Positions 8,415-29,711 of a stretch of DNA of 64,000 bases are shown here, one piece after another. Made by a program: the position numbers and the translations under genes. Each line of letters begins with the position of its first letter. Position 1 is the stretch's first letter. The DNA is from Erysipelotrichaceae bacterium (GTDB lineage Bacteria; Bacillota_I; Bacilli_A; Erysipelotrichales; Erysipelotrichaceae). The notes beneath the pieces were generated by a model. It searched no databases. It was not told the origin of the DNA and saw nothing but the letters and a program-made list of their open reading frames with translations. The DNA lies in the NCBI GenBank assembly GCA_030694975.1, contig JAUYTU010000015.1, positions 1 through 64,000 on the forward strand, read 5' to 3'.

Positions 8415-9176
8415 ATGAAAAAAGAAAGAAGAAAAAAAACGATGGTAATTTTGGTATTTTTAGTAGCAATCGCAATTATTCAAACATTACCGGTATTTTT
8501 TCTGAAACCCATGGGTTTTAAAACGATGTCGGATGAGAATATTGAGATGTTTTATGCACCTGAAGTACAAAAAGGTGCAGAAGAAGTGTTTGAGCTGCTT
8601 CAGTTGAAATCCAACGAAATTAAAGAGAAAATGAATGTGGAATTCGATGAGCCTACGAAAGTATACATATACAAAACTCAAAGACAGTTGGCCATTAGAG
8701 AAGCAGGTTTTATAACATTGACTTTTGCACCAAGCTGGTACATAGGAGACAGCCACAATGGGAACATTATGATGGTCTCACCGTATACAAAGGTTAAAGG
8801 ACATACCCATGAAAGCATTTTGAATGCAACCTTGCATGAACTCGTTCATGCCATCAATTATCAAATCAATCCAAAGATGTCTTACTTCTGGGACAATGGT
8901 CTGGCAACATATCTTTCAAATCAAAAGCCAAATGAGTCGGATTTGACAAGCCATTCCATTCCTACCTTCAAGCAGTTAAAGACGGATAATGGATTAGAGT
9001 TCGGGAACATGGGTGGATATGCCTATTCATATTCGTATATTGAATATCTCGATGAAATCTATGGTTGGGATAAGGTGCATGCTTATGCCTCTGGAAACAA
9101 AACATACGAAGATGTATTTGGTAAGTCAGAGTTGGATGTTTATAATGATTGGTGCCATTTCCTTAAAGAAGATTAA
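8415..9176 (+). CDS. Membrane-anchored gluzincin-type metallopeptidase (peptidase MA-like)
   Basis: 253 residues. Start 8415 follows GAAAGAGGTAAAAAG. A very basic N-terminus precedes one TM helix (about residues 10-28), so the catalytic part is extracytoplasmic. LHELVHAINYQ at about residues 138-148 is a zinc HExxH motif. About 18 residues on, YFWDNGLATYLS occupies the place where peptidase-MA proteins usually carry the third zinc ligand as NEGLA; here it reads DNGLA, so the third ligand may be the Asp or the site may be altered. Zinc peptidase fold is likely; substrate unknown. Confidence 0.75.
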   Translation: MKKERRKKTMVILVFLVAIAIIQTLPVFFLKPMGFKTMSDENIEMFYAPEVQKGAEEVFELLQLKSNEIKEKMNVEFDEPTKVYIYKTQRQLAIREAGFITLTFAPSWYIGDSHNGNIMMVSPYTKVKGHTHESILNATLHELVHAINYQINPKMSYFWDNGLATYLSNQKPNESDLTSHSIPTFKQLKTDNGLEFGNMGGYAYSYSYIEYLDEIYGWDKVHAYASGNKTYEDVFGKSELDVYNDWCHFLKED

Positions 9177-28733: not shown

Positions 28734-28812
28734 CTCATATTTCTGATTTTGACCTTGAATATTATTCGTATCCATTATCAGAGAATTATACAATCCGAAA
28801 TAACGAATGACG

Positions 28813-28853
28813 AAAGGAGTAAGATATCTTATAACTAGATATCTTGTATTTAG
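28813..28853 (+). promoter_or_regulatory. Shine-Dalgarno separated from its start by a hairpin
   Basis: AAAGGAG (28813-28819) is 34 nt from ATG 28854, too far for normal initiation. Between them AAGATATCT (28821-28829) pairs perfectly with AGATATCTT (28837-28845) around a 7-nt loop. Folded, the stem leaves 1 + 8 nt between the ribosome site and the ATG, a standard spacing. No other ribosome site is present and an in-frame TAG directly precedes the ATG. Confidence 0.55.
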
Positions 28854-29711
28854 ATGAGAGATGAAGTAAAAAATGATCTTATAACTATTCTAAAAGGATT
28901 CATTATTGGATCATCTATGAGCGTTCCAGGAATAAGCGGCGGAACCATGGCCATTCTTCTAGGAATATACGATCAACTAATTAGTTCAATAAGTAATTTT
29001 TTCAGTGATATCAAAGGAAACTCCATTTTTCTGTTTAAAGCGCTGCTGGGAACATTTTTAGGCATTGGCTCCTTAGCTTTTGTCATTCAGTGGCTTTTAC
29101 TCAGATACCCTATATATCTTTCATTTTTCTTCTTAGGTGCTGTCATCGGCGGTGTTCCGGCTTTATTTAAGAAAACAAAGGAAAGAACGTTAAAAGTCTC
29201 ATCGATCCTCTACATGATCGTTGGGTTTTTGACCGTTATTTCCATAAGTTTTATTCCAACCGGAAGCTTTAGTATAGTCTCAGGTACAGGACTTGTTCAT
29301 TATCTGATGGTATTGATTACAGGAATTATCATCGCAATCGCACTGATATTGCCAGGCATCAGTACTTCGCATATGTTATTAGTTTTAGGTATGTATGACA
29401 CATTACTCAAGGCAATCACGACTTTCGATGTTATTTATATCGGTATTTTAGGTGTATCGACAGTTATCGGTGTATTTCTAATCACTAAACCGATTGAATG
29501 GACCATGAACACATTCACGAAACAAACATATTTTGTTATAATTGGCTTTGTATTAGGATCTACGGCTGAAATATTTAAAGATAAAATCTTGCCGGCAGTA
29601 CCACAAGATCCAAGCACATTTTGGTGGTTATCCGCATTTGTATTCTCATTGATTACCTTTATCATCGGATATCGTGCTATTTCATCATTGTCAACGTTTT
29701 CGAACGATTAA
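28854..29711 (+). CDS. DUF368 membrane protein, polyprenyl-phosphate transporter family (PopT-like)
   Basis: 285 residues, about eight TM helices. The first repeat has GSSMSVPGISGGTMAILLGIYD and the second has ALILPGISTSHMLLVLGMYD: the two PGxSxxxxxxxxGxYD motifs that define DUF368. DUF368 proteins have been reported to recycle undecaprenyl phosphate across the cytoplasmic membrane for cell-wall synthesis; assignment here is by family. Monocistronic; initiation probably uses the hairpin-spaced ribosome site upstream. Confidence 0.9.
   Translation: MRDEVKNDLITILKGFIIGSSMSVPGISGGTMAILLGIYDQLISSISNFFSDIKGNSIFLFKALLGTFLGIGSLAFVIQWLLLRYPIYLSFFFLGAVIGGVPALFKKTKERTLKVSSILYMIVGFLTVISISFIPTGSFSIVSGTGLVHYLMVLITGIIIAIALILPGISTSHMLLVLGMYDTLLKAITTFDVIYIGILGVSTVIGVFLITKPIEWTMNTFTKQTYFVIIGFVLGSTAEIFKDKILPAVPQDPSTFWWLSAFVFSLITFIIGYRAISSLSTFSND

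Follow-up and report, generated by a model that had tools for sequence, protein, structure and literature searches.

A conserved hairpin between a distant Shine-Dalgarno sequence and the start codon of a DUF368 gene: a probable structure-bridged ribosome-binding site

The leader of the DUF368 gene in the window, the whole 64,000-nt stretch of Erysipelotrichaceae DNA analyzed here, is most probably a structure-bridged (split, or accommodated) ribosome-binding site, judging from its sequence and from that of its close homologues. The features involved are listed below in the order in which they occur.

28749..28778, + strand: weak sigma-A-like promoter TTGACC-18-CATTAT, 9/12 matches
28812..28819, + strand: Shine-Dalgarno (SD) GAAAGGAG; same 8-mer in 17 of 24 homologues including the window, a variant in six, none in L003
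28820..28829, + strand: 5' arm of the hairpin, (T)AAGATATCT, from sequence and folding
28830..28836, + strand: hairpin loop TATAACT, not conserved in relatives
28837..28846, + strand: 3' arm of the hairpin, AGATATCTT(G), from folding; RNAalifold helix in a 12-leader alignment that includes the window
28847..28853, + strand: unpaired linker TATTTAG, without an SD; its last codon is an in-frame TAG stop
28854..29711, + strand: DUF368/VCA0040-like (PF04018) gene, a putative undecaprenyl-phosphate translocase of 285 aa (Pfam E 1.6e-42)

In the window, a 34-nt gap (28820-28853) separates AAAGGAG (28813-28819) from the ATG at 28854, and this gap is occupied by a perfect 9-bp hairpin in which AAGATATCT (28821-28829) pairs with AGATATCTT (28837-28845) around the TATAACT loop, with a possible tenth pair between U28820 and G28846. 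A preliminary description had pointed out this distance, the hairpin and an effective spacing of 9 nt, all of which were confirmed on the sequence; the spacing becomes 7 nt if the tenth pair forms. As an in-frame TAG lies directly 5' of the ATG and no in-frame ATG, GTG or TTG lies upstream, the codon at 28854 is the only usable start, and the stretch from this ATG to the first motif (KGF.IGSS), whose length and pattern are common to the homologues, provides additional support for it. None of the SD-like motifs searched for occurs between the hairpin and the ATG in the window. An exact 12-nt direct repeat, ATCTTATAACTA, is found at 28826-28837, in the hairpin, and again at 28876-28887, early in the open reading frame (0.03 expected in the window).

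In the mechanism proposed here, the local hairpin would fold immediately behind the SD and the 30S subunit would bind the SD while the hairpin stays folded, so that a start codon 34 nt off in sequence would effectively be 7-9 nt off. The hairpin would be a built-in spacer, the sequence of which is of little importance. What the sequences themselves show is an SD, a hairpin and a single usable ATG, along with the conservation and compensatory changes of this arrangement in a clade of homologues; from these we infer initiation by the 30S subunit at this SD, translation of the mRNA in its folded form and a constitutive effect.

The window protein scores 146.2 bits against PF04018, for which the cut-off is 26; PMC9876793 presents proteins of this family as candidate undecaprenyl-phosphate translocases. 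The same genome carries a second DUF368 gene (L002 1501-2211; G000:C24:80443-81153) with 32% identity and a start without an apparent SD. Close homologues are rare in the window's family (2 of 272 genomes, E 1e-60); they were detected in 6 of 397 sampled genomes from the family of genome G316 (E 1e-80) and in 16 of 34 genomes from the genus of G316 (E 1e-60), and a genome scan yielded seven loci at 62-68% identity, including Herbinix and Anaerocolumna MAGs. Removal of duplicate loci left 24 homologues, namely 14 collected first (the window, L003, L009-L015, L019, L020 and L022-L024) and ten collected later from the genus of G316 (L057, L059, L060, L061, L063-L066, L068 and L070). Seventeen plasmid records, all below 60% identity, were left out of the comparison, and among viral contigs seven stretches fit the search pattern, none of which encodes a relative. 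The 24 homologues form one clade against the more distant L016 and L017 (support 100/100) and the window and L003 are sisters (99/94), in a tree where most inner branches lack resolution and the bootstrap is still short of settling. L003 comes from the same genus as the window, is 60% identical and has a reading frame that extends to 409 aa. That so few genomes of the window's family have a close homologue hints at a transfer with Lachnospiraceae as donor or recipient.

An SD located 29-126 nt ahead of the ATG, with an intervening hairpin, was found in 22 of the 24 close homologues, including the window. In the first set of 14, AAAGG[A/G] occurs as an SD-like motif 32-126 nt upstream of the ATG in 13, each with a single hairpin that fills the gap, and a fresh test on the ten later homologues with the same energy test, using an SD pattern broadened for L066 and L070, detected the arrangement in nine. 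The two exceptions are L003, which has neither SD nor hairpin, and L063, in which the SD is 16 nt from the ATG and the hairpin is absent; these indicate that the gene can manage without the bridging arrangement. Across the leaders the SD is near-perfect despite its distance from the start, and the SD-like motifs searched for are absent from the 18 nt before the ATG in 22 of 23 leaders. Three distant DUF368 genes (L016, L017 and L018) have an SD at the ordinary distance, without the gap.

Before folding, the SD-ATG spacing of the 22 leaders ranges from 29 to 126 nt (mean 42.4, sd 19.9), and after folding it ranges from 3 to 19 nt (mean 10.9, median 10, sd 3.5), with the stem starting 0-5 nt after the SD and stopping 3-14 nt ahead of the ATG. 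Effective spacing falls outside 5-15 nt in L061 (19 nt), L065 (16 nt) and L013 (3 nt), the first two being long for an SD. The leaders combine, on sequence, a good SD that is too distant with no nearer one (ambiguous in L066 and L070), a stable structure that fills the gap, an effective spacing within the working range (except in L013, L061 and L065) and retention of the structure in relatives. With the arrangement in 22 of 24 homologues, compensatory changes in the arms and a median of 10 nt, the comparison lends strong support to the preliminary proposal that the hairpin sets the SD-start spacing.

Starts in the relatives were taken as the ATG aligned to residue 1 of the window protein, or were set by the reading frame (L022, L023, L024, L063, L064, L066 and L070; L024 has two in-frame ATGs, and the upstream one was used). 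Additional in-frame ATGs lie upstream in L014 (6 nt), L019 (15 nt) and L020 (6 nt), where the spacing hinges on the start chosen, and in-frame GTG or TTG codons in several relatives make their starts less certain than that of the window. In L070 an in-frame ATG follows AGGAGG by 5 nt, making an ordinary start possible there, and in L066 an AAAGG resides within the 3' arm, nearer the ATG than the main SD. Including these two, the weak or ambiguous cases are L070, L061, L065, L066, L023 and L013. It is very unlikely that the SD instead serves a short leader ORF, with the DUF368 gene translated by coupling. An ATG 5 nt after the SD of L020 does open a 12-codon ORF that overlaps the main start, and L009 and L014 have GTG mini-ORFs and L019 a TTG one, but their lengths, frames and stops are not conserved, no ATG, GTG or TTG occurs 3-15 nt after the SD in nine of the first 13 leaders, that of the window among them, and coupling would leave the complementarity of the arms unexplained.

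Folding of the window spacer was matched by 0.85% of 2000 dinucleotide shuffles, and by 0.35% under the added demand for a single exterior helix with 5-15 nt left over. Longer window stretches gave a weaker signal, with 16 of 200 shuffles (111 nt) and 7 of 200 (127 nt) folding equally well; the exact hairpin is present once in the window, and with up to three mismatches 0.09 occurrences are expected and 8 of 100 shuffles have one. Taken alone, the window sequence is no more than suggestive, and the hairpin is judged real because of its conservation in 22 of 24 homologues. Comparison of hairpin energies with shuffles gave a Fisher p of 2e-13 for the first 13 SD-bearing leaders, a combined p of 1e-8 for the ten later leaders (including L063) and, for the 22 pooled spacers of at least 20 nt each, a combined p of 1.4e-19 with a mean z of -2.9; these combined values treat the leaders as independent, though they are related by descent. 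Control stretches from the 23 leaders gave no such signal, whether taken from the 40 nt 5' of the SD (p 0.13) or from the opening 40 nt of the ORF (p 0.99). Individually, 18 of the 23 SD-bearing leaders beat 95% of their shuffles (11 of the first 13 and seven of the later ten), with L014, L023, L061 and L066 below that mark. The SD is predicted to be unpaired at 37 C with a probability of 0.34 in L012, 0.51 in L022 and 0.62-0.98 in the other 11 leaders of the first set. It is extremely unlikely that the hairpin is a matter of chance, or has an unrelated role such as mRNA stability, in a gene that starts with little help from its SD: L003 and L063 do without a hairpin, but the shuffle energy tests, the covariation described below, the result for the later ten and the flat flanks all stand against this reading.

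The sequences of the stems vary: of the 6 standard pair types, between 4 and 6 are seen at each of positions 1-9, numbered from the helix base, in a count where pairing itself is given by construction. When 3' arms were exchanged between species, the average cost was about 4 kcal/mol. Own arms gave -10.1 kcal/mol against -5.3 for swapped arms in the first 13 leaders (0 of 20000 permutations), -7.2 against -4.3 in the later ten (24 of 20000) and -8.9 against -4.9 in all 23 including L063 (0 of 20000). A leader's own 3' arm was the single best partner in 9 of the first 13, 2 of the later ten and 8 of all 23. Covariation was measured on a sequence-only MAFFT alignment of 12 of the 24 leaders (A2, the window plus 11 hand-chosen as alignable; pair counts exclude the 11-leader alignment A1). 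In this alignment, paired cells reached 81.3% compared to 72.5% in shuffled alignments, cells altered on both sides numbered 12 compared to 4.9, and the covariation score was 0.424 compared to 0.272, with 0 of 500 shuffles reaching any of these values. Two measures were less clear, namely pairs altered on both sides (5 versus 3.1, reached by 45 of 500 shuffles) and further pair types (15 versus 11.6, reached by 7 of 500). Slid controls on the same alignment gave at most 64.6% paired cells and a covariation of at most 0.244, and RNAalifold, unaided, returned the same eight pairs with a modest energy of -2.49 and a small covariation term of -0.06.

These changes also bear on a DNA-level reading, in which the palindrome AAGATATCTT and its partial copy would be an operator bound by a transcription factor. 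The first arm in the window is itself palindromic and repeated, as such a site could be, but relatives retain the complementarity and not the sequence, and the position is locked between the SD and the ATG. As the sequence is not conserved, the operator was set aside as exceedingly improbable.

The preliminary description had further proposed that the short stem could act as a switch responsive to temperature or a ligand. RNA thermometers and translational riboswitches are structures in the 5' leader that act on initiation, typically by hiding the SD, unlike the DUF368 hairpin, which leaves the SD outside and joins it to the start. A regulated switch, in which the bridged form is the ON state and translation stops once the hairpin is opened by temperature, a ligand, a protein or an sRNA, is unlikely overall. 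The conservation fits regulation as well as it fits plain spacing, and PMC9876793 reports a conditional importance of DUF368 genes, at alkaline pH, for V. cholerae and S. aureus. In an alternative fold of the window leader, the 3' arm base-pairs to the start region instead (-9.9 versus -10.5 kcal/mol for the bridged fold), and the pairing probability of 28825-28841 was 0.70, 0.61 or 0.93 in the three stretches folded; this alternative was examined for the window alone, however, and 0.93 is the value for the bridged fold in the longest stretch.

Predictions with temperature did not bear out the thermal switch. In the energy model, most stems of the first 13 leaders are predicted to be stable at 50-60 C and none melts sharply near 37 C, so that melting within the physiological range, as an RNA thermometer would have it, was absent from these predictions. 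Eleven of the 13 would hold their outer stem pairs at a probability of at least 0.79 at 50 C, the exceptions being L013 (0.64) and L023 (0.17, and 0.38 at 20 C), the latter with a weak stem when folded in context (0.28 at 37 C). The window stem is not predicted to melt; its probability rises from 0.66 at 37 C to 0.82 at 55 C as the competing fold melts first.

The ligand switch fared no better, as loops and stems share no common sequence, and with it no obvious recognition site, and 13 of the 23 leaders appear to have little room for a sensor. Each of these has, in the 45 nt 5' of its SD, a promoter-like site with at least 10 of 12 matches (compared to 4.8% of shuffles), and eight leaders have TTTACA-17-TATAAT at 11 of 12 matches (compared to 0.14% of shuffles). 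The clear sites end 18-39 nt before the SD, so the mRNA probably begins shortly before it and has no space for a sizeable aptamer. Promoter-like sites in the other ten leaders, including the window (9/12), are weak, and around the window leader their number is as expected by chance. In Rfam, the window had no match at the gathering score, with the matches near its leader far below that score, and none was found at the leaders of 12 homologues (those of the first set other than the window and L003).

In order to look for further instances of the structure-bridged site, a model (R1) was built from 12 leaders. Searched against 53 sources, R1 found seven of the 12 held-out homologue leaders at E <=5, with only L009 (0.0019) below 0.1 and the others within a chance-like range, and missed those of L013, L022, L070, L063 and L003, making it a weak detector. 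In its own genome the window scored E 4.4e-6 and the next match 2.63, among 150 of 1659 first-look candidates. With 150 candidates considered per genome, the best match was the DUF368 leader in 12 of 15 genomes, 11 of which were in the training set, that of L009 being outside it, and no DUF368-leader match was obtained in G001, G666 and G728. As far as these stretches and this rather weak model can tell, each genome's clearest instance is the leader of its DUF368 gene. Descriptor scans, which relied on a crude gene caller, gave three fits among 354 ORFs (the window and 320 kb of contig C24), one being the window and the other two seeming to sit within longer reading frames. Among 238 ORFs in stretches of G666 and G465, the two DUF368 genes fit, as did three additional starts, at sample positions 195270 and 149084 of G666 and 41961 of G465.

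Five further R1 matches had E values of 0.15-0.39; L088 has a clear hairpin, and the others resemble ordinary SDs or chance. At L088 203-245 (G742:C281:13002-13044), GAAAGGAG is followed by a 7-bp perfect hairpin (AGCTATT/AATAGCT), 9 nt and the ATG of a Glyco_transf_4/DUF1972 gene, with Glyco_transf_4 as its Pfam match (R1 E 0.22). This glycosyltransferase leader is possibly a second use of the arrangement. At L049 ~9035-9084 (G666:C1 ~749,084), AAAGGAGG is followed by a hairpin (GCGTATG/CATACGT) and an ATG; the encoded 332-aa protein has no Pfam match, and a mini-ORF, ATG AAG TAG, lies inside the leader. One speculative and rather improbable extension is that the bridging hairpin is a regulated on-state, whose opening, or replacement by a fold that hides the start, would stop the undecaprenyl-phosphate transporter under particular envelope or pH conditions, and that the same device operates on other envelope genes, with L088 as the second case.

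Most examples of SD spacing set by structure are, to our knowledge, single phage genes. The accommodated ribosome-binding site of T4 gene 25 was reportedly worked out by Nivinskas in 1999 and by Malys and Nivinskas in 2009. As described in PMC3014915, this split site resides at the gene 26-25 junction and is supported by DMS probing and lacZ fusions, RNA structure reduces its SD-AUG gap from 27 to 11 nt, and the structure is present in close T-even phages and missing in distant relatives; the same text gives T4 gene 38 as a reduction from 22 to 5 nt by structure between the SD and AUG. The likeness to known cases that the preliminary description had noted may be drawn, by analogy, with these two genes. 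As in gene 25, an over-long gap would be shortened by RNA structure (34 to 7-9 nt in the window), and distant DUF368 genes (L016-L018) are without the arrangement. Unlike phage gene 25, the DUF368 site belongs to a bacterial chromosomal gene, has gaps of up to 126 nt and a stem sequence that is free to change, and is known here from sequence; unlike gene 38, a single phage case, it recurs in a clade of bacterial genes.

In E. coli thrS, which is regulated by ThrRS, the accommodated hairpin lies 5' of the SD and separates it from a distal single-stranded site, unlike the DUF368 hairpin, which lies between the SD and AUG. The thrS leader is called a split ribosome-binding site (Sacerdot et al.) in the portion of PMC3936740 that was available, and the accessible part of PMC4619774 contains no such case. 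Our literature search, with most subscription journals outside its coverage, returned the T4 and thrS precedents and not the DUF368 element itself. As far as these searches show, the principle of structure-set spacing is already known, and the bacterial chromosomal family, the size range and the natural series of compensatory changes are new.

If the reading of the DUF368 leader as a structure-bridged site is true, the repeated change of both arms would argue strongly, from natural variation, that initiation by the 30S subunit across a folded hairpin is possible. With gaps that range naturally from 29 to 126 nt, the clade would also allow the limits of bridging to be gauged, and prediction of ribosome-binding sites that is confined to about 20 nt upstream of a start codon could miss real sites.
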